Below are positions 1,264-32,285 of a DNA stretch of 64,000 bases, piece after piece. This DNA is from Pseudonocardiales bacterium. Lineage in GTDB: Bacteria > Actinomycetota > Actinomycetes > Mycobacteriales > Pseudonocardiaceae. The notes beneath the pieces are model-generated. The model made no database searches and was not told where the DNA came from. It saw only the letters and a program-made list of their open reading frames with translations. Every line of letters starts with the position of its first letter. The first letter of the stretch is position 1. The stretch is from NCBI GenBank assembly GCA_019247305.1, contig JAFAPC010000171.1, forward strand, positions 1-64,000. The letters run 5' to 3'. The translations under genes were made by a program, and so were the position numbers.

Positions 1264-3117
1264 GTGACGGTGGTGCCCATCCTGGGTCTTGGCGATGCTC
1301 CGACCAACCATGCACGGCTGCGCGACTGGGTGCGCGACACCGCAGCGCTCACCCAGCCCGATCGCATCGAGTGGTGTGATGGATCGGAGCAGGAGTGGGA
1401 CCGGCTCACCACCCAGCTGGTCGCCACCGGCACGTTCACCCGGCTGGCGGGCAAGCCGAACTCGTTCTGGGCCGCCTCGGATCCCTCCGACGTGGCCCGG
1501 ATAGAAGAGCGCACGTTCATCTGCTCGCGCGCTGAGCAGGACTGCGGCCCCACCAACAACTGGATGCACCCGGACGACATGAAGTCGATCATGACTGGGT
1601 TGTACCGGGGATGCATGCGCGGTCGGACCATGTACGTGGTGCCGTTCTGTATGGGCCCGTTGGGGGACCGGAGACCCAAACTCGGCGTCGAGATCACCGA
1701 CTCCGCCTACGTGGTGTGCTCAATGAAGATCATGACCAGGATGGGTGCGGTGGCGCTGCGCAAATTTACCTCACCGGAGGGCGGTGATGCGGACTTCGTG
1801 CCCTGCCTGCACTCGGTGGGCTACCCGCTGGAGCCCGGCCAGGCTGACGTGCCCTGGCCGTGCAACGACACCAAGTACATCAGCCACTTCCCCGACGAGA
1901 AACTGATCTGGAGTTACGGTTCCGGCTACGGTGGTAACGCGCTGCTAGGCAAGAAGTGCTACGCGCTGCGGATCGCCTCGGTGCTGGCCCGCGACGAGGG
2001 CTGGCTCGCCGAGCATATGCTGATCCTCAAGCTGACCAGCCCGCAGCGGGTGACCCATTACGTCGCGGCCGCGTTCCCCTCCGCTTGCGGCAAGACCAAC
2101 CTGGCCCTGCTCGAGCCGACCATCCCCGGCTGGACGGTCCAGACCTTGGGGGATGACATCGCCTGGATGCGTTTCGGCGCCGATGGTCGGCTGTACGCGG
2201 TGAACCCCGAGGCCGGGTTCTTCGGCGTGGCCCCGGGCACCAGCTGGAAGACCAACCCCAACGCCATGCGCACGCTGCGCTGCGGCAACTCCATTTTCAC
2301 CAATGTCGCGCTCACCGACGACGGCGACATCTGGTGGGAGGGTATGGAGCCGGTGCCGGCGCACGCCACCTCGTGGACCAAACAGGACTGGACGCCGGCT
2401 GATGGCGCCACCGGACAGCGCGGCGCGCACCCGAACTCCCGGTACTGCACGCCGATGGCGCAGTGCCCGGTGCTCGCCGAGGAGTGGGACGATCCAGCCG
2501 GGGTGCCGATTTCGGCGATCCTGTTCGGCGGCCGCCGGGCCAGCACGATCCCGCTGGTCAACGAGGCCTTCGACTGGCAGCACGGGGTGTTTCTGGGCGC
2601 CACGCTGTCCAGCGAGAAGACCGCGGCGGCGGTCGGTGGGCTCGGCGAGGTGCGCCGCGACCCGATGGCGATGCTGCCGTTCCTCGGCTACCACGCCGGC
2701 GACTACTTCCAACACTGGATCAACGTCGGCAAGGGCGCCGACGCCGGTAAGCTCCCGAAGATCTTTTATGTGAACTGGTTCCGCCGCGGCGTTGGCCAGC
2801 GCTACCTGTGGCCCGGTTTCGGGGAGAACAGCCGCGTCCTCAAGTGGATCATCGAGCGGGTCGAGGGTCGGGCGTCGGCGGCCGACACCGCGATCGGCCG
2901 GGTACCCACCCCGGACCAGCTTGATCTGTCCGGCCTGGACACCCCGATCGAGGACGTCAGCGCCGCCCTCGCGGTGGACATCGACGAGTGGCGGGCTGAG
3001 CTCCCCCTCATCGAGCAGTGGTTTGACAAGATCGGCGACGCGCTCCCCACCCCGCTGCGCGACGAATTCATCTCTCTCCACCACCGCCTCCTGCATCCAG
3101 CGGGCTCAGCGGGGTAA
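1264..3117 (+). CDS. pckG: Phosphoenolpyruvate carboxykinase (GTP)
   Basis: Converts oxaloacetate plus GTP to PEP plus CO2, the entry step of gluconeogenesis in actinobacteria. The protein is about 617 residues, the family's usual size. Diagnostic motifs are APTNH near the N-terminus, the PEP/oxaloacetate segment [16 protein letters not shown], the GTP kinase loop FPSACGKTN and the late [10 protein letters not shown] block. I prefer GTG at 1264, which leaves about 12 residues before APTNH as in mycobacterial PckG. A TTG at 1225 with GAGG 10 nt upstream is the alternative. The gene is followed after 47 bp by a monocarboxylate-type symporter, which fits growth on lactate, pyruvate or similar substrates. 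Confidence 0.95.
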
Positions 3118-3164
3118 ACACGACCGGATAACTCCGCTGCGCCTGCGGTGCCCATAATGTCGGG

Positions 3165-4802
3165 ATGTCGTTGGTCGTGTTTGGGGTGCTGTTCGCCCTC
3201 GTGACGGCGCTGGGGTTCTTCGCGTCGCGGTGGCGGGGTGGTGGGCGTTTCGATCACCTCGACGAGTGGGGGCTGGGCGGTCGCGCCTTCGGCCCGTGGG
3301 TCACCTGGTTTCTCATCGGCGGGGACCTCTACACCGCCTACACCTTCGTCGCGGTGCCCGCGCTGATATTTGGCGCTGGGGCGATGGGATTCTTTGCGCT
3401 GCCCAACACCGTGCTCGTCTACCCGCTGGTGTACCTGCCGCTACTCCGGTTGTGGTCGGTATCCCGGGCACACGGTTATGTGACCCCTGCGGACTTCGTC
3501 CACGGCCGTTACGGATCGCCGACCCTGGCCCTGCTGGTGGCGGTCACCGGAATCGTCGCGACCATGCCCTACATCGCCCTGCAACTGGCCGGGCTGGAGG
3601 CGGTGCTGCGCACCATGGGCCTCAACGGGACCGGACTGGCCGGGCACGCCCCCTTGTTTGTCGCGTTCCTGATCCTCGCGGTCTACACCTACCGGTCCGG
3701 CCTGCGGGCTCCCGCGCTGATCGCCTTCGTCAAGGACGGGCTGATGTACCTGGTGATTATCGCCGCAGTGGTCATCCTGCCGATCAAACTCGGCGGCTGG
3801 GGTGCCATCTTCGACGCCGCGAACACGAAGTTCACCGCCACGCCTGCCCAGAGCGGTGGAATTCTACTCAACGCCACGAACCAACTGCAGTACGTCACGT
3901 TAGCGTTGGGCTCAGCACTCGCGCTGTTCCTTTACCCGCATGCGGTGACCGGCGTCCTGGCCGCCCGGAGCAGCACCGTGATCAAACGTAATATGGTGGC
4001 GTTGCCGGCGTATTCACTGATGCTGGGGCTGCTTGCGTTGTTGGGTTATGCAGCGATCGCGGCGCACACGCACCCGATCGTCAATGCGGCCACCGGCCGG
4101 CCGGACTCCAACACGGTGATCCCGATGCTCTTCGCGGGACAGTTCCCGTCCTGGTTCGCCGGTGTCGCGTTCGCGGCCATCGGGATCGGCGCGCTGGTCC
4201 CGGCGGCGATCATGTCGATCGCGGCGGCGAATTTGTGGACCCGCAACATCTACCGGGCATACCTGCATCGCGACGCCACCGCCGCGCAGGAGGCGCAGCA
4301 GGCCAAGATCGCTTCGCTGGTGGTGAAGTTCGGGGCGGTGGCCCTGATCGTCCTCATCGACCCGCAATACTCGATTGACCTGCAGCTGATCGGTGGTGCC
4401 ATCATTCTGCAGACGCTGCCCATGGTGGCGATCGCCCTCTACACCCGCTGGTTGCACGTCGCGGGCTTGGCCGCGGGCTGGGTGGTGGGTATGGGATGGG
4501 GTCTGGCGCTGCTCTTTGGGATTCCCAACCGGGCCAGCGGCAAGCAGCATTTCGGCGGGTCGGCACTCGCGCTGAACGAGGTGTCGATCCTGGGCTGGCA
4601 TCCCTTCGCCGGCTCACCGACGCAAATCTACGTCGGATTTATCGCGCTCACCGGCAATCTCGTGGTCGCGGCGCTGGTCACCCTCGTGCTGCGCCCGATG
4701 CGGATCGCGGGCGGGACCGATGAGACCACCCCATTGGACTACTCGCCAGTCGAAAGCCCTGGGTACTCAAAGATGCGTGAGCACCTGCAAGCCCACCCCT
4801 AA
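3165..4802 (+). CDS. Sodium:solute symporter family permease (MctP-like)
   Basis: A 545-residue integral membrane protein with about 13 hydrophobic segments and the SSS-family layout. The N-terminal part (a DEWGLGGRAFGPW block followed by FLIGGDLYTAYTF) resembles monocarboxylate permeases of the MctP type, so pyruvate, lactate or acetate are the likely substrates. The substrate is inferred from family resemblance only. The small DUF3311-type partner often found with such permeases is absent. A CATAAT hexamer at 3152-3157 lies just in front of the ATG, so a leaderless transcript is possible. Same strand as pckG, 47 bp downstream of it. Confidence 0.85.
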   Translation: MSLVVFGVLFALVTALGFFASRWRGGGRFDHLDEWGLGGRAFGPWVTWFLIGGDLYTAYTFVAVPALIFGAGAMGFFALPNTVLVYPLVYLPLLRLWSVSRAHGYVTPADFVHGRYGSPTLALLVAVTGIVATMPYIALQLAGLEAVLRTMGLNGTGLAGHAPLFVAFLILAVYTYRSGLRAPALIAFVKDGLMYLVIIAAVVILPIKLGGWGAIFDAANTKFTATPAQSGGILLNATNQLQYVTLALGSALALFLYPHAVTGVLAARSSTVIKRNMVALPAYSLMLGLLALLGYAAIAAHTHPIVNAATGRPDSNTVIPMLFAGQFPSWFAGVAFAAIGIGALVPAAIMSIAAANLWTRNIYRAYLHRDATAAQEAQQAKIASLVVKFGAVALIVLIDPQYSIDLQLIGGAIILQTLPMVAIALYTRWLHVAGLAAGWVVGMGWGLALLFGIPNRASGKQHFGGSALALNEVSILGWHPFAGSPTQIYVGFIALTGNLVVAALVTLVLRPMRIAGGTDETTPLDYSPVESPGYSKMREHLQAHP

Positions 4803-17727: not shown

Positions 17728-17943
17728 GTGGATGCCATCAACAGCCTAGATCCTCGGGAGCCGCAGCCCGGCGTCCCCGTGAGGCCGGAGCAGAAAGCCC
17801 TCGCCGACCGCGTTCTCACCGAGATCCTCAAGGAGCTCGGTGGTAAGCCGGCACTCGCTGACTATCGGCGGGTCTATGCCACTCTTGGCGTGGAATGGCC
17901 CGGTGAGCAGCGCATCCGTGAGCTGTACCCCGTCGCGGGGTGA
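17728..17943 (+). CDS. Small protein upstream of PIN-like gene, possible antitoxin
   Basis: A 71-residue hydrophilic protein starting at GTG 17728. A TAGGCT hexamer about 7 bp upstream could make the message leaderless. No domain is recognised. It overlaps the following PIN-like gene by 4 nt (GTGA), the usual antitoxin-toxin arrangement, which is the only basis for suggesting an antitoxin. Confidence 0.5.
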   Translation: MDAINSLDPREPQPGVPVRPEQKALADRVLTEILKELGGKPALADYRRVYATLGVEWPGEQRIRELYPVAG

Positions 17944-18323
17944 TCGGCGGGAAGGTCGTTGATCCCAGCGCCCTGGCCGCGCATGTGGGCGGCAGCTTCG
18001 CCATGGCGACCTGGCTGGCGGTGGCCAACGAGCTGAGCATCGTCCTGTACGTGCCGGCACTGGCGATGGTGGAGGTCCGCGCGGTGTATCCGGACGCCCA
18101 GGCGGTGTTGTCCCGACTGTTGGCGCACCCCTCAGTGATCCACGCGGACCTGACCCGTGCCCAGGCCCGGGAAGTCGCCCGGTTACTCGCCGAGTCCCAG
18201 GCCTGGGACGGCACCGCCGGTCGCGTGGTCCTGGTTGCCCGAGAGCGGGGCTGGCCGGTGCTGACCGCCGACCCGGGCCGGCTGCGACGGATCGCCCCGG
18301 ACCTGGACCTCGACCTGCTGTAG
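17940..18323 (+). CDS. PIN-domain-like protein, possible VapC-type toxin
   Basis: A 127-residue protein starting at GTG 17940. The N-terminal VVDPSALAAH and the C-terminal VLTADPGRLRRIAPDLDLD follow the PIN-fold pattern (Asp after the first strand, TAD near the end), as in VapC ribonucleases. The middle acidic residue (Glu in MVEVRAVYP) is at a plausible place. The first strand reads DPSAL rather than the common DtSal/DaSal. Probably a toxin of a type II pair with the gene before it; activity is not proven. Confidence 0.55.
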   Translation: MIGGKVVDPSALAAHVGGSFAMATWLAVANELSIVLYVPALAMVEVRAVYPDAQAVLSRLLAHPSVIHADLTRAQAREVARLLAESQAWDGTAGRVVLVARERGWPVLTADPGRLRRIAPDLDLDLL

Positions 18324-18355: not shown

Positions 18356-19200
18356 GGGTTCGACGCCGACCTTCGCGACAAGTGCGAGATGGCCAAGCGG
18401 ATGCTGAGCACCACACCGCAGGCGCGGGTCTTCACGTCGGCGTCTGGCAGGAACTTCCAGATCCAGGTGACCCGGGAGCAGTTGGAGTCGTTGACCGCTG
18501 ACCTGCTGCGACGCACACACGACATGATGGACGAGGCGATGGAGGACGCCCACCTATCCTATGCCGACATCGACCGAGTGCTGCTGGTCGGTGGCTCGAC
18601 GCGGATGCCGATGGTAGGCGAGCTCGTAGCCCGGGTGACCGGTAAGAAACCGGAACTGTCGATCAACCCCGACGAAGCGGTGGCCCTCGGCGCAGCGATC
18701 CAGGCCGAGATCGTGGCCGCCGAGTCTCGCGGCCAGGCTCCTGGGCTCGCGTCCGGCCAGCCGCTGGTGATTCGCGACGTCTGCTCACAGAGCCTGGGTG
18801 TGATCGCGGTCGAGGACAAGATGGGCCGGCTGGTCGAGTTCAATTCCGTGATCATTCCGCATAACAGCAAGATTCCGCACAAGCACAGCGGAATGTACCA
18901 GACGGTGCAGGACAATCAGACCCAGCTGGAGATCGCGGTGACCGAAGGCGACGACCGTGATATCAAGTACGTCACCGTGGTTGGCAAGAGCCTGCTGAAG
19001 ATTCCGCCGTACCCGGCGGGCGCCCCGGTCGAGGTGATCATGTCCTATGACATCGACGCAGTAATTCACGTTGAGTTGAAGTGGTGGACCGCACCACTAA
19101 CCAACACCTTGGTGAGTTCGAGATCGACCGGGAAGCCAACCTTGACCAAGCTCAGGTGAAGCAGATGCGTATAGCGATGAACGCGTTAGAGGTCTCATGA
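18356..19200 (+). pseudogene. Truncated, frameshifted dnaK-like gene
   Basis: Hsp70 remnant. Reading starts at FDADLRDKCEMAKR, well inside the nucleotide-binding domain, so the N-terminal ATP-binding half is missing and stops precede it. The part that remains has LLVGGSTRMPMV, NPDEAVALGAA and the substrate-domain start. Near 19078 one G appears lost (ttgaagtggtgg for an expected ttgaaggtggtgg). Beyond it, the other frame continues as VVDRTTNQHLGEFEIDREAN and stops at TGA 19198-19200, overlapping the grpE ATG by 4 nt. That restored ATGA coupling shows the original gene ended there. Confidence 0.8.
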
Positions 19201-26764: not shown

Positions 26765-28097
26765 TCACTCGGCCCCGGGGAGCGCGGGGTCGGTCGGGGT
26801 ACGGGTGAAGCTGCGGATTTGGTCGTACAGGTCCAGCGCGAGGGCGCTGGTCTGGTACTTGGGCCGCCGCAGCGCGCGACCCACCTGGTGAAGGCGGCGC
26901 GAAACGACTTCGATGCGGCGCTTGGTGGCGATAGCCAGCACGTCCTGAAGCTGTTCCGCGGTGCCGTCAAGATCGTCACGGCCGGGCCGGGCCGCAGCAA
27001 GGTCCAGCCGAGCCGAGCACAGCTCGCCGAGACGGCGCTGCTCCGGGGGGTCGGCTTCGTAGAGCTCGACGGCGTGAGCCGCGTCCCGCTCAGCGTCGGT
27101 GAGACTGTCCTGTCCCCCCAGCCACAGCCGTGCGTTCGCGGCGTGGTAGCTCTGCTTGGCGAGGGGGAACACAAGCATCCCGCCGGGGTCGTCCGCGCCC
27201 CGAACCTCGTCGCGGGCCTGCTCAGCACGAGCCAGCGCGTTCTGGGTTTCGCGCTGGTCGCGCATCCGGGCGTGCGCCCGGGCCTCGATCGAGGCCAACC
27301 GGACCCGGGCCGTCCCGGTCTCCGGGACATAACGCCAGCCGTCCGCCGCCAGCTCGACGGCGGTGCGGGGCCGCTCGTCCCAGTAGGCCACCAGGCTCTG
27401 CATGCCCCGTACACCAGGCGCGCAACGCGTTGTTCCCGGCCAGCTCAGCGCACAGGAACGCGGTGCGGGCGTGCGTCTCGGCGGCGGGCAGCCAGCCCAA
27501 GTCGAAGGAGGCGTTGGCGAGCACGCCACACAGCGCCCCCGCCACCAGATACAGCTCCCGGCTCTGATCCGGGTACTGACGACCTTCCAGCAGCTCGAAC
27601 GCCCGGTTGCGCAACGCCCGTACCTCGACAAAGAGCGGGTAGACCGGCCGGTTCGGGTAAGTTGTCACGATCCGCACCAGGTCCGCGCGGAACTGCTCCA
27701 GGGTGTGCGGGCCGACGTTGGACTGCTCAGCGAACTGCCCGAAATGGGCCGACTCGGAAGCGGCCATCGCCACCTCCCTCTGCACTGCCGGATCGTCCAC
27801 CGAGCCGAGTACCTCGAGCGTAGCGACCTCAATCCGACGCGCGGGATCGGGCGGCCCGAACAGCCGCTCGGCGCTCTCCCCAAACATCTTCTCCAGCACC
27901 CGGCACGCCGCCGGATACGGAAGACCACCGAGGTTACCCGCCATCCAGCGAGCCACGTGCCGGGTTGACACGCTGATCCGTTCGTCGAGCTGATCCGCTG
28001 TGCGGATGAAGTCTCTCTGAAACTCAGCCCTGGTCCGCCGTAACTGGCGCACCAGCTGCTCCAGCCTTGTCCGCGGCAGCAGCTCAGAACCGGACAT
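26765..28097 (-). pseudogene. HTH/TPR regulator, frameshifted
   Basis: The N-terminal frame begins MSGSELLPRTRLEQLVRQLR at ATG 28097, with GGAGG upstream. It carries a helix-turn-helix (STRHVARWMAGN) and TPR-like helices up to AGNNALRAW near 27412. There an extra T (cctggtgtacgg for an expected cctgggtacgg) shifts the frame; the other frame continues RGMQSLVAYWDERPRTAVEL down to 26765. Without the shift the protein would be about 443 residues. Its 3' end is partly duplicated at 20165, and it is distantly related to the fragments at 58668 and 63387. It stands next to the lasso cluster but in the opposite direction, so it could have regulated it. Confidence 0.75.
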
Positions 28098-28416
28098 CCC
28101 CCTCACCTCCCGAGCGCAGGGTTGAGCACCCGACGGGAGCACTGTAGGGAATCTGGTAGGCCAATGGTCGGCCTGAGCACGCCGATGTCCGGACCACGTC
28201 CGCTCCCCGTCCCCACTCGTCGAGGTGATGTCCACCGCCACCCCGGCACTCTCAGCGGCTGAGGAGTTGCGCCCGCCAGGGCGCTGACCTCGGCCGCGAG
28301 ATCCTTCGGGCGATACAACTACTGTCAATAGCTCTGTAGTAACGGTTACGGTGAGATGGCATCAGGGAAGTAGGCCGCCTGGTCTTGTCCAGTGCACGCC
28401 GAGGAGGGGAGTGGCA
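28098..28416. promoter_or_regulatory. Divergent region between regulator and lasso operon
   Basis: 319 bp without a gene. An imperfect dyad, ACTAC...GTAGT, around 28319-28343 lies about 75-95 bp before the lasso precursor start and is the best candidate control site. No clear -35/-10 pair can be called. Confidence 0.35.
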
Positions 28417-28569
28417 ATGAACGAGGCTGTCCAGACTCGTGTGAGCGACGTGGAACCGTATGAGCCACCGGAGCTGACGGTAGTAGGTGAATTTGGTGAG
28501 GTGACCAAAGGTAATTACAGCAGACCGCACTCGGATGACAGTGATGCCGGTGGTTATTGGTCGCCGTGA
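28417..28569 (+). CDS. Lasso peptide precursor
   Basis: A 50-residue precursor starting at ATG 28417 with a strong GGAGGGGAG site upstream. The leader is residues 1-31 and contains YEPPEL, the YxxPxL motif read by B1/PqqD-like proteins, and Thr at position -2 (leader end EVTK). The predicted core is GNYSRPHSDDSDAGGYWSP: Gly1 and Asp9 would form a nine-residue macrolactam ring, with tail residues 10-19. Asp10 and Asp12 (before Ser and Ala) are outside the ring. The downstream PIMT-like enzyme makes an aspartyl methyl ester or aspartimide likely. The gene stops 3 bp before the cyclase GTG. The exact core start is inferred from the Thr(-2) rule. Confidence 0.9.
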   Translation: MNEAVQTRVSDVEPYEPPELTVVGEFGEVTKGNYSRPHSDDSDAGGYWSP

Positions 28570-28572
28570 ACC

Positions 28573-30512
28573 GTGCTGACAACTGGCCGTGGTGATCGCC
28601 GCAGCCGCAGCGGTATCCGGTGGTGGTGTGCGCTGCCGGACCTGGACACGGCCACGTTCGCAGCGCGTTTGCTCGCTACCGAAGCCGACACCGTAGTCGC
28701 CCACGGTTCCGGTCGGCCGTGGCTGTTCGGCTGCGGCATCGCCGATGAGTTCCGCATAGTCGTGGTCGGGCTGACGCGAGTCGCGGTGATCGGCACCTGC
28801 CTAGCCACCGATCTTGAGCTGAGGACGCACGTCGAATCCACAGTCCGGCGCGACAATGTCGATCCTCTCACCACGCTGCCCGGTAGTTACCACCTCGTTG
28901 TGAGCGGCCCAGCCGGAATGCTGGTGTTCGGAGACATCGTCGGGTTTCGGCGCGTCTTCACTACCCAGACTGGCGCTACCACGGTAGCCGCCAGCCACGC
29001 GGGCGTACTGCGCCGCCTGGTCAATGCGCCGGTGAGCCGCACTTGGTTGGCCGCTCGGTTGGCCAGCCCGGAAATGCCCAGCCTGCTGCGTGAGTCACTA
29101 AGCCCGTTCGAGGGTGTCCGTGTGATCCCCCCTGGCCATTGCCTTACGGTGCACCATGACGCTACCCGGCACACGCTGTGCTGGGCACCACCGCCAGCGG
29201 TCGAGCCGTTGTCGGACGGCGCTCGCGTTCTGGCGGAGGCGCTCACCAGTGCCGTCGCCGGCCGGGTGAGGGCTGCCGGCAGGCCCATCAGTGGTCCGAT
29301 TGCCGGCCCAGCCGTCAGTGTTCAGCTCTCCGGTGGCTTGGACTCCACTGCGGTGTCCTGCTTGGCCGGGAATGCTATCTGGGATCGGTCGGTACTGCTG
29401 TTGGTAACGACGGCATCGATCTCACCCGGCAATGATGACCTCAGCTGGGCGCGCCAGGTCGCCGACCATCTCATTCCGGCAGAACACCTGGTGCTCGGCG
29501 CCCAGGAGACTCCTTGTTTCTTCGACGACCTGCCCGCTGTGGAGACCGAGATGGACGAGCCCGCACCGTTCACGGCTGCGGCGGCACGGGTGCGCCATCT
29601 CGCGGCTGTGCTGGCCGGCTGTGGTGTACGGGTACATCTCAATGGTCAAGGCGGCGATGAGGTGCTCCTTGCGCCGTTGACCTACCTCCATGACGCACTG
29701 CGTGCTCACCCACGACAGGGCTGGAGACATCTGCGAGGGCAGGCCGCGCTACGCGACCTGAACGTGCTGCGCTTGACGCGCTCGATGCTGGCCACACCTT
29801 CCTTCGGAAGTGGTTGCGTTGGGCCGCCGGCACCCTGCGAACCGAGGCGCCCACCGAGATAGTGGCCGCAGGCTGGGAAGCTCAACCCCTGCTGGCGCAA
29901 TGGGCCACTAGCGACGCCGAACAGCTCGTCCGTGCCGCGATCCTGGCCGCCCAACCGATCGCCACGGCCGGGCGGGGCACACACGCCGCCCTCGCGCGGA
30001 TCCGGTCCACGGCCTATCGCGCGGCTCTCTACCGAGATGCGCTCGCCAGCTACGGTGTGCGCACCGAGTTCCCCTTCTTCGACCGCGCCGTGCTGGAGGC
30101 GTGCCTTGCCGTTCGTCCCTGGGAGCGGTCCGATCCCTGGCAGCCCAAACCACTGTTGCGGGCTGCTCTCGCCGATGTGGTTCCCACGCATCTGCTGGCG
30201 CGGCGCACCAAGGCCCACTACAACGACGATATCTACCGGGGCTGGAAAGCCAACCGCCACCACGTGGCTGAGCTGCTCGACGACTCGCGGCTATGCGAGC
30301 TTGGCTTGGTCGACGCAAGCGTGCTGCGCCGCTGTGTGCGCTCGTTTGGCCCATCCGGACTGGCACCAGCCTTTATTACCGACACTATTGCGTGCGAGGT
30401 CTGGCTGCGCAGCCTAACCTCACCGTTCACCTGCGATCGGGAGTCTGATGATGTCTGCGCTCAACACGAGGGTGTCCCTGATCCACGGAGTATTGAGCAC
30501 CGTGGTGGATGA
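28573..30512 (+). pseudogene. Lasso cyclase (asparagine-synthetase-like), single-base frameshift
   Basis: Frame 1 from GTG 28573 gives the N-terminal amidotransferase-like part and the ATP-pyrophosphatase loop VQLSGGLDSTAVS, then NGQGGDEVLLAP, to about 29805. The continuation is in another frame from FLRKWLRWAAG onward, with the usual lasso-cyclase tail (EFPFFDRAVLEACLAVRPWE, PKPLLRAAL, LLARRTKAHYNDDIY). Adding one C at 29805/29806 (ttccggaag instead of ttcggaag) joins SF-RKWLRW and yields a protein of about 646 residues, normal for actinobacterial cyclases. Either the gene is inactivated or the base was lost in sequencing. The 3' end overlaps B1 by 65 nt. Confidence 0.88.
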
Positions 30513-30723
30513 CGGCCTGACGCTGTTGGATGAGCGGCGCGGTATGATCTATCACCTCAACCACACTGGCGCCGCCGCGCTGTTGGCGCTGCTCAACAGC
30601 GGGATCGAGGCCGCCGTCACCGCGCTGTGTGCCCGGTATGCCGTCACCGCACAGACCGCCCGGCGCGACATCACCAGGCTCCTCGACGAGCTGCTTGTCC
30701 ACCGTCTGGTCGTGCTCCAGTGA
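30448..30723 (+). CDS. Lasso B1 (PqqD-like leader-binding) protein
   Basis: A 91-residue PqqD-fold protein: strand-rich start VLSTVVDDGLTLLDERRGMI, YHLNHTGAAALLALL, then helices ending RRDITRLLDELLVHRLV. B1 (RRE) proteins bind the leader YxxPxL motif and deliver the precursor to the B2 protease and the cyclase. The start is ATG 30448, within the last 65 nt of the cyclase. It ends in GTGA, overlapping the B2 start. Confidence 0.93.
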   Translation: MMSALNTRVSLIHGVLSTVVDDGLTLLDERRGMIYHLNHTGAAALLALLNSGIEAAVTALCARYAVTAQTARRDITRLLDELLVHRLVVLQ

Positions 30724-31139
30724 GCGCGCCGATCGCCCTGGCGCTACCGCGCAGCCTGTCACTCGGCGAACGCTGCACCGGGTTGCTGGCGGTGACGGCA
30801 GCCACTGTGCTGCTGAGCGTCACCAGGGCACGTCCAGGCAGGATTCGTCGGGTCCTGAGCGCGCTGCGCCGCGGCGGTCACGACGCCGATGTTCCGTGTG
30901 CCGAACGGGCCTATGGCATCATCACCACAGTCAACCTCAGATGCGCCAGCGGGCATGACTGCCTGCGCCGGTCGCTGGCCATCATTCTGCTGTGCCGAAT
31001 GTGGGGTGCTCGCGCTACCTGGCGGGTCGGGTTCCGCTCACCGCCACCGCAGTCCCATGCGTGGGTCGAAGCAGCCGGCCAACCCGTCTGCGAGACGGTG
31101 AACCCCCACACGATCTACACGCCGATCATTACTGTCTGA
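30720..31139 (+). CDS. Lasso B2 leader peptidase (transglutaminase-like)
   Basis: A 139-residue transglutaminase-like cysteine protease that removes the leader. The catalytic Cys is in GHDCLRRSLAIILLCR and the catalytic His in SHAWVEAAGQPV. The C-terminal part (INPHTIYTPIITV-like block) ends as in actinobacterial B2 proteins. The start GTG 30720 overlaps the B1 stop as GTGA; longer readings upstream would run through B1 and are rejected. Confidence 0.92.
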   Translation: MSAPIALALPRSLSLGERCTGLLAVTAATVLLSVTRARPGRIRRVLSALRRGGHDADVPCAERAYGIITTVNLRCASGHDCLRRSLAIILLCRMWGARATWRVGFRSPPPQSHAWVEAAGQPVCETVNPHTIYTPIITV

Positions 31140-31154
31140 GAGGACGCCGCAGCT

Positions 31155-32285
31155 GTGCCCGAGGCACTCACGACCCGGCTTACCGCGTTCGCCGCATCGC
31201 TGCGCGAGGCCGGCGCGATCCGCTCAGACGCCGTCGAGCAAGCCTTCGCCAGCGTGCCTCGACACCAGTGCGTCCCCGAGTTCCGTTACGGCCCGCAGAC
31301 CATCAGGGTGGCCCAGGACCAGCTACCGGAAAGCGAGGTCTTGGACATCGTCTACTCCCACCAGTCGCTGCTGACGAGCACGGGGCGAGATGGCGGCCTG
31401 CCCTCATCCTCTTCGGCACCCCCGCTGATGGCCCGGATGCTCGAAGCCCTCGAGCTGGAGCCCGGCATGCGGGTGCTCGACATCGGTGCCGGCACCGGCT
31501 ACAACGCTGCGCTCATCGCCACCATCACCGGCGCGCCCGTCCACACCATCGACGCTGACGCGACTACCGCCCACGCCGCGGCCGAATCCATCCGCCGGCT
31601 TGGACTTGACCATCAGGTCACGGTCCGCCGCGGTGACGGCTACCTCGGCGCACCCTCCGGCGCCCCCTACGACCGGATCATCATCACCTGCGGTGTCGCG
31701 GGCTTGTCTCCACCCTGGCTTGACCAACTCACCCCCGACGGCCTCATCCTCGCTCCGATCGCCCACGGTGGGGTGCATCCCATCCTGGCCGCGCGCCGTC
31801 ACGACGGTGTCCACGCCAAGGCCGCCCTGTGGGCCGACTTCATGCCCGCAGCTGGACCATTACGCCCGCCGGAGCTGGTGGGCCACGACCCCGCCGACTA
31901 CCTCGCCCCCGCTCCAATCACCCGGATCCCGGAGGCGAGCCCGGCCCGCACCGCGGCCACCTACGACGACCTGTGGTTCTTCCTGGCCACCCGAGATGAT
32001 CGGATCACCCGCGCCTACCTGGACGACGACAGCATCGACCCGAGCAAGGGCACCTGCGCATTACACGTCCCGGCGTGTGGCACAGCGTGGGTGCAGATCG
32101 ACGGCACCATCGCCGCGGTGGGTGAGGCCGCCGTGGCGGCCACGTTACACACTCTCATCCGCGCCTGGGAAGCCACCGGCCAACCCGAGCTCACCCAGTT
32201 CACCAGCAGCTTTGCCCAGGTCGGATCACCTCAGCAGCCGTTACTGACACCGCGGCACTGGACCCTGGCTGACGTCCGCTGCTAG
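31155..32285 (+). CDS. PIMT-like O-methyltransferase of the lasso cluster
   Basis: A 376-residue protein of the protein-L-isoaspartate O-methyltransferase family. A substrate-side SHQSLLTS block precedes the SAM-binding MRVLDIGAGTGYNAALI, and the C-terminal extension of about 150 residues is longer than housekeeping PIMT (about 220). The start is GTG 31155, 15 bp after B2. Established work on PIMT-containing lasso clusters (cellulonodin-2, lihuanodin) shows that such enzymes methylate an Asp side chain that then collapses to an aspartimide. The same fate for an Asp of this core is the natural expectation. Its stop shares CTAG with the convergent ACT-GNAT gene. Confidence 0.88.
   Translation: MPEALTTRLTAFAASLREAGAIRSDAVEQAFASVPRHQCVPEFRYGPQTIRVAQDQLPESEVLDIVYSHQSLLTSTGRDGGLPSSSSAPPLMARMLEALELEPGMRVLDIGAGTGYNAALIATITGAPVHTIDADATTAHAAAESIRRLGLDHQVTVRRGDGYLGAPSGAPYDRIIITCGVAGLSPPWLDQLTPDGLILAPIAHGGVHPILAARRHDGVHAKAALWADFMPAAGPLRPPELVGHDPADYLAPAPITRIPEASPARTAATYDDLWFFLATRDDRITRAYLDDDSIDPSKGTCALHVPACGTAWVQIDGTIAAVGEAAVAATLHTLIRAWEATGQPELTQFTSSFAQVGSPQQPLLTPRHWTLADVRC

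Follow-up and report, generated by a model that had tools for sequence, protein, structure and literature searches.

Would a lasso peptide whose only ring aspartate is the ring-closing one be modified by a PIMT-type methyltransferase in its loop, and if so, at which residue? This question is raised by positions 28417-32285 of a 64,000-nucleotide stretch of DNA from a Pseudonocardiales bacterium (assembly GCA_019247305.1, contig JAFAPC010000171.1), hereafter called the window, where a lasso precursor (A), a cyclase (C), the proteins B1 and B2 and a PIMT-type methyltransferase (M) are encoded on the plus strand in one order. Very probably, the window cluster belongs to 'group 2' of the PIMT-associated lasso peptides, a kind predicted before, and its M would modify a loop aspartate, most likely Asp10. 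As a rule, lasso leaders carry Thr at position -2. The window precursor has this Thr, is recognized by the leader profile NF033521, and offers D9 as the acidic residue expected at core positions 7-9; B1 and B2 proteins are encoded as well. Adjoining these lasso genes is a PIMT homolog with a C-terminal extension and a WxxxGxP motif, and the putative loop contains conserved aspartates (D10 and D12, found in 11/11 distinct cores). The D(T/S)AD motif that marks group 1 at core positions 6-9 is absent, PHSD being found there. What the window lacks is an intact asparagine-synthetase-like cyclase, because C lies in two frames and each part stays below the cutoff of NF033561. The features of the cluster are as follows.

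28401-28410, plus strand: candidate ribosome-binding site GAGGAGGGGA before the precursor start (from the sequence and by inference)
28417-28569, plus strand: lasso precursor (NF033521 lasso_leader_L3, 29.6 bits against a cutoff of 19)
28417-28509, plus strand: precursor leader, ending YEPPELTVVGEFGEVTK (NF033521; alignment of 14 precursors)
28510-28566, plus strand: core GNYSRPHSDDSDAGGYWSP, with D9 as predicted ring closure and D10 and D12 as loop aspartates (11 distinct related cores)
28573-29862, plus strand: N-terminal part of cyclase C, first frame (Pfam Asn_synthase; NF033561 below cutoff)
29806-29816, plus strand: stretch of C where the reading frame shifts (tblastn against locus L009 and an intact relative)
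29814-30512, plus strand: C-terminal part of cyclase C, second frame, its end overlapping B1 (Pfam Asn_synthase; NF033561 below cutoff)
30448-30723, plus strand: B1, PqqD-like leader-binding protein (PF05402 passed; NF033530 narrowly missed with 63.3 bits against a cutoff of 70)
30720-31139, plus strand: B2, transglutaminase-like leader peptidase (PF13471; NF033537 above cutoff)
31155-32285, plus strand: M, PIMT-type methyltransferase of 376 amino acids with GTG start, GAGTGY S-adenosylmethionine (SAM) motif and C-terminal extension (Pfam PCMT, 6e-33; alignment)
32166-32186, plus strand: WEATGQP in M, matching the WxxxGxP motif of PIMTs associated with ribosomally synthesized and post-translationally modified peptides (RiPPs) (alignment and count; motif named in PMC13001092)

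An earlier, sequence-only reading of this DNA had described a precursor, a cyclase, B1, B2 and a 376-residue PIMT-type enzyme in a single strand order, and the coordinates and families obtained here agree with it. A lasso cluster with a PIMT-type enzyme, ring closure at Asp9 and a target in the loop, as proposed there, is consistent with the comparison of relatives throughout. The cyclase it listed is present, but its title and reasoning left out the frameshift split, at which only the mention of a 'repaired cyclase' hinted.

Core motif and predicted target

Recognizable A, C, B1, B2 and M were found together in 12 loci (the window, L009, L012, L010, L011, L048, L054, L055, L056, L103, L105 and L106); kept apart from these are L057 (genome G003), which ends at a contig end, and L102 (G919), in which a run of N covers part of C. 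The 12 complete loci and two precursors from G252 yielded 14 precursors with 11 distinct cores. These have the common motif S8-D9-D10-[G/S/T]11-D12-A13-G14-x-Y16, which is present in all 12 complete loci. G1, S4, S8, D9, D10, D12, A13, G14 and Y16 each occur in 11/11 distinct cores, while position 11 is S in five, G in five and T in one. This similarity is more than chance, because the codon changes are overwhelmingly synonymous: 13 synonymous and 1 non-synonymous between the window core and that of L048, and 9 and 1, respectively, between the window core and that of L009. The core is thus under strong selection.

The association of motif and methyltransferase was also seen from the motif side. 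A DNA pattern for DDxDAGGY, with x limited by codon, occurred at 12 places in 11 of 390 genomes of the window's family, and a reversed control pattern at none. Eleven of the 12 places are lasso precursors; the one in G146 is not, its surroundings being only weakly matched (best E 0.015). M adjoins nine of the 11 motif precursors on the same contig. The remaining two belong to G252 and are each some 400 bases away from a contig end; two M genes are found at the start of other contigs in this genome. At four loci that have a lasso-type cyclase but no M within the 12-13 kb fetched (C45 of the window's own genome, G252:C49, G098:C105 and G373), the cores, picked by eye, are unrelated.

D9 is the only acidic residue at a usual ring-closing position of the window core and, judged by this, should close the ring. 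The earlier assignment of GNYSRPHSDDSDAGGYWSP as a core closing at Asp9 is sound, given Thr at leader position -2, G1, D9 and the lack of Asp and Glu among residues 1-8. The accompanying statement that the ring-closing Asp is the only one in the ring is correct for the window, but for the group it applies to 8 of the 11 distinct cores, the exceptions being the G649 core with D6 and two Streptomyces-type cores with D2. The G649 core (L103, GSYSRDTSDDSDAGKYYHADG, 3938-4000) contains a ring-type D6-T7-x-D9 plus a loop-type D10-S11-D12, as if both motif groups were combined.

The two loop aspartates differ in the residue that follows: after D10 it is always Gly, Ser or Thr, after D12 always Ala. 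In ring-type lasso peptides the residue after the modified Asp (n+1) is Thr or Ser; in lanthipeptides it is typically Gly, with Thr, Asn and Asp also known; in graspetides it is Gly if characterized, and predictions extend to Ser, Arg, Thr, Asn, Lys, Met and His; and in one imiditide it is His, whereas Ala is absent from the n+1 residues in the main text of that review (PMC13001092). Because Gly, Ser and Thr also follow known RiPP-PIMT sites and Ala follows D12, D10 appears likelier than D12 as the target of M.

Methyltransferase M and its relatives

Among solved structures the best sequence match of M is 1DL5, a Thermotoga PIMT with a C-terminal extension (PMC13001092), although the match spans the catalytic part only. 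M also matches TIGR04188 and TIGR04364, both below cutoff. The WxxxGxP motif was found in 16 of 18 group-2 M rows. In a 27-row tree, the window M clusters with those of G053, G012 and two Actinoalloteichus copies (support 100/99), and the group-2 rows need 2 label changes compared to a shuffled mean of 7.8. The pN/pS of M against relatives is 0.41. Within the window's own 5.2 Mb genome, 42 places match the window PIMT with an E value of 1e-3 or lower, which suggests that PIMT-type enzymes are numerous there.

In the searches of family, order and class only the best few candidates per genome were scored, and order and class were represented by even samples. With M as query, 15 of the 390 family genomes (own included) had a match at E 1e-70 or better; at the same threshold there were 3 among 298 genomes of the order sample, all from the window's family, and 5 among 394 of the class sample, four of them outside the family. 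One further family gave 3 of 35 genomes, all already among the class-sample matches. A scan of genome contigs with M returned 19 loci, four of which have 50-64% identity over nearly the whole query (Actinoalloteichus caeruleus, Actinoalloteichus spitiensis, Amycolatopsis sp. GM8 and a Prauserella muralis plasmid) and 15 of which are distant (27-36%). The nearest complete clusters found are those of A. caeruleus and A. spitiensis. Around L052, L058 and L059, which are M relatives of 43-50% identity, no lasso genes were detected nearby by tblastn. Two of 72,556 plasmids match M at E 1e-40. One scan of viral contigs revealed no relative of M, and a virus-borne home for the cluster was therefore dropped. 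Group-2 clusters are located on plasmids of Prauserella muralis (L011/L053), Prauserella marina (L054/L107; plasmid NZ_CP016354.1) and Streptomyces flavofungini (L106; plasmid NZ_CP128847.1), and helix-turn-helix and DUF397 genes precede the cluster in the latter two.

Two further loci of the window's own genome are related. On contig C96 (L082, about 2407-4572, minus strand) lies a cluster of group-1 type, with the precursor MAKQPYIQPTLVALGDVRSFTLGRKSYDTADMKNYYN, DTAD at core positions 6-9, matches resembling B1 and B2 and a PIMT of 352 amino acids, in which most of the cyclase is missing. Contig C35 (L060, about 1369-3400) has a group-2 relic: A, C, B1 and B2 are absent and M is internally deleted. 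The upstream flank and M ends of this relic are 82-93% identical to the G006 locus, and its truncated M is a 58% match to the window M.

Comparison with known systems

The sequence-only reading had regarded a loop aspartimide or ester as a new placement. This does not stand, since the placement has been predicted before: PMC10787088 (2023) describes 67 PIMT-associated lasso clusters that fall into two groups by motif, of which one has a conserved Asp placed in the putative loop, and PMC13001092 (2026) lists this loop-Asp group as 'group 2' lassimiditides, a predicted class for which A. caeruleus LHW52806 is named. A wholly new placement was rejected on these grounds. The likeness of the window to both descriptions consists of lasso genes accompanied by a PIMT homolog and a conserved predicted loop Asp. 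The closest counterparts are A. caeruleus DSM 43889 and A. spitiensis, whose core is one residue off that of the window and whose M is 64% identical; from the species named we infer that the window motif is the published group-2 motif. The window is thus a further member of an already predicted kind, to which the present comparison adds 14 precursors with 11 distinct cores and a common motif, the argument for D10 and the recurrent lesions of C.

The two characterized lassimiditides are both of the ring type (PMC13001092). Like the group-1 peptides cellulonodin-2 and lihuanodin with their DTAD ring motif, the window peptide would have a 9-residue ring closed at Asp9 and a PIMT-type M with WxxxGxP (PMC13001092). 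In cellulonodin-2 and lihuanodin, however, the modified residue is Asp6 in the ring, followed by Thr, whereas the window core has no D6 and its candidates D10 and D12 are in the loop. The modified Asp of these two peptides had been placed 'in or next to' the ring by the earlier reading; it is inside, at core position 6, and not adjacent. Graspetides, lanthipeptides and pamtides/imiditides with PIMT homologs resemble the system in their related methyltransferases with C-terminal extension, and Gly is common after the modified Asp of graspetides and lanthipeptides, as at D10 of several group-2 cores; unlike lasso peptides, all of these have other backbone modifications or none. In the open-licence literature, judged by titles and abstract openings, no group-2 peptide was recognized as characterized, and the accessible portion of PMC13352647 describes only ring aspartimides.

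Proposed mechanism

In an intact relative, B1 would present the leader and B2 would remove it, while C would activate Asp9 and join it to Gly1 around the tail. Once the lasso is folded, M would use SAM to methylate an Asp in its loop, most likely Asp10; a requirement for a folded substrate is known for the ring type (PMC13001092) and is presumed here. Attack by the next backbone amide with departure of methanol would give an aspartimide, whose opening may yield isoAsp or Asp. Ring closure, target residue and product are all predicted from the comparison of genes. In the ring type, the Thr that follows the ring Asp directs hydrolysis toward Asp, since formation of isoAsp would make the ring larger and let the peptide unthread (PMC13001092). 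An isoAsp in the loop would not widen the ring, so the n+1 Thr/Ser of group 1 could relax to Gly, Ser or Thr. A tolerance of Gly after the loop Asp would fit such a scheme, because a loop site escapes the penalty of ring enlargement.

Several observations weigh against assigning the cluster to group 2 with Asp10 as target. All group-2 members are genomic predictions. D12 is as invariant as D10, and the choice of site depends on the n+1 argument. The pattern by which cores were read itself demanded G1, D9, D10, one of G/S/T/A/N at position 11, D12, A13, G14 and Y16, although the loci were mostly found via M. Position -2 of the leader is Ala in L048 (G006, core at 3625), as opposed to Thr in the other 13 precursors. 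In the M proteins of L103 and L104 the Gly of the WxxxGxP motif is missing, the tree requires 2 label changes and not 1, and the non-lasso M of L059 is possibly nested among the group-2 rows. The AlphaFold model of M is poor (mean pLDDT 59, mostly below 50 in the C-terminal region), having been built from a five-row alignment. Finally, C is broken not only in the window but also in five others of the 12 loci, at six different sites.

Two rivals concern the enzyme and its target. M might modify Asp12 and not Asp10, with all else as proposed. D12, too, is found in every distinct core and lies deeper in the loop, and PMC10787088, as far as its text was available, speaks of a single conserved loop Asp, the position of which is not stated there. 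Against this, D12 always precedes an Ala that does not figure among the n+1 residues in the main text of PMC13001092, while D10 precedes only G, S and T, and we regard Asp12 as an unlikely target. M as a housekeeping repair enzyme that adjoins the cluster by chance would account for its catalytic part of PIMT type. It is extremely improbable in view of the identical gene order in 12 loci, the C-terminal extension with WxxxGxP, and the 11/11 motif-bearing lasso-precursor places that adjoin M or sit at contig ends compatible with M. This identity was rejected on account of the RiPP-type extension and motif and the constant company of one core motif.

Repeated breaks in the cyclase gene

In the window, C can be aligned with its relatives in the first frame as far as about position 29805 and again, after a change of frame, from about 29817; L009 keeps a single frame across the equivalent point. 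The stop codon that ends the first frame is overlapped by a GTG of the second. Because C is frameshifted, the window copy is probably silent and, as sequenced, would probably make no lasso peptide. C is open in 6 of the 12 loci (L010, L054, L055, L056, L105 and L106). In the numbering of L054, the lesions of the other six lie at 79 in L009, 355 in L048, about 358 in L103, about 386 in the window, 404 in L012 and about 533 in L011. Three of them are frameshifts, which could be sequencing errors, and three are in-frame stops. Four of the six fall within residues 355-404 of the 600-residue protein, a clustering with a rough-bound chance of about 0.03 that carries little weight. In the B1, B2 and M genes of the 12 loci no internal break was seen, a few tblastn matches overrunning the terminal stop of B2 or M.

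Over 11.8 kb, L009 and L012 share 99.2% identity, yet their C genes are interrupted by in-frame stops at different sites, each of which is open in the other locus. Their codon differences number 9 in C (2 of them the stops), 8 in M (no stop), 1 in B2 and none in A and B1. M is open and C largely or wholly missing in L045 (G012), in L044 (G053), whose B1 and B2 are likewise fragmented, and in L104 (G953), where everything from A to B2 is absent. As a control, 27 other matches in 80 genomes were considered that are cyclase-like and not individually confirmed as lasso cyclases; three have stops inside, not all of which are necessarily internal. The difference between 6/12 and 3/27 gives p 0.014 in a Fisher test. 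The two parts of the window C show pN/pS values of 0.40 and 0.29 against L009 (stops masked), and since both halves look constrained, any real loss of C would be recent.

The repeated breakage may reflect selection, decay or, in part, assembly error. Somewhat better than even, in our judgment, is the prospect that the window cluster is a decaying relic, in which C is truly lost, M and the rest are leftovers, and the strain makes no modified lasso. The window has the frameshift in C plus another in a neighboring gene, C is broken at different places in six of the 12 complete loci and is absent or almost so in L044, L045 and L104, half of the six lesions are in-frame stops, and the sister genomes with L009 and L012 differ in their stops; the same genome also carries the truncated group-2 relic and the group-1 cluster without most of C. 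On the other side stand the six open C genes and the apparent constraint on both C halves, M and the core, which demands that the loss be recent. Assembly error is a live alternative because the genome is a draft of 206 contigs with 87.7% completeness and 6.87% contamination. That the window frameshift is such an error, or one of sequencing, and the cluster is functional, is a serious contender at a little under even chances. The second frameshift lies only 2.4 kb away in the neighboring gene, and the constraint on C is not relaxed; against it, C has been damaged independently in relatives, three times by an in-frame stop, and B1, B2 and M show no visible break in the 12 loci. A bolder proposal, which we consider quite improbable, holds that the loop modification by M is self-protection and that, for this reason, losses in nature strike C selectively and repeatedly and leave M and the core intact. 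Aspartimides as immunity factors have been speculated upon (PMC13001092). In a cluster without exporter, losing M first while C is open would be harmful, so that surviving lesions would fall in C. A still bolder form would have C working as two coupled halves, since four of six lesions fall within residues 355-404 and the window GTG overlaps the first-frame stop.

Neighboring genes

One divergent gene precedes the cluster.

26765-28328, minus strand: divergent upstream gene in two frames, with the break near 27407-27416 (segments 27417-28064 and 26789-27406 by codon usage)

From its look, this gene is perhaps a regulator, and its membership in the cluster is putative. Neither segment matches Pfam, and the fetched relative loci longer than 6 kb contain no homolog at E 1e-8. 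In the same loci, the S9 peptidase and GNAT genes downstream of the cluster were likewise unmatched at E 1e-20. The absence of an ABC exporter noted by the sequence-only reading is borne out: no ABC transporter domain occurred among the 20 window segments given to Pfam, a subset of the open reading frames that includes both cluster flanks (about 20.4-28.1 and 32.3-37.5 kb). For two plasmid-borne relatives, the gene table, which is incomplete, lists no ABC transporter within 6-8 kb. Elsewhere in the window, an open reading frame at 18389-19159 on the plus strand matches only the later half of Hsp70 (profile positions 256-473 of 599), and the scanned segment upstream of it, 17940-18320, had no family match.

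Implications

The 2026 review treats lasso peptides modified in the loop as predicted and not characterized (PMC13001092). The 11 distinct cores with their nearly fixed motif, together with the open-C clusters on the plasmids of Prauserella marina and Streptomyces flavofungini, make the choice between D10 and D12 directly testable. The scattered lesions of C render the window cluster and the two Actinoalloteichus clusters poor choices for expression. If a loop Asp can indeed be converted to isoAsp without unthreading of the peptide, this would reveal the role of the Thr/Ser that follows the ring Asp in group 1.

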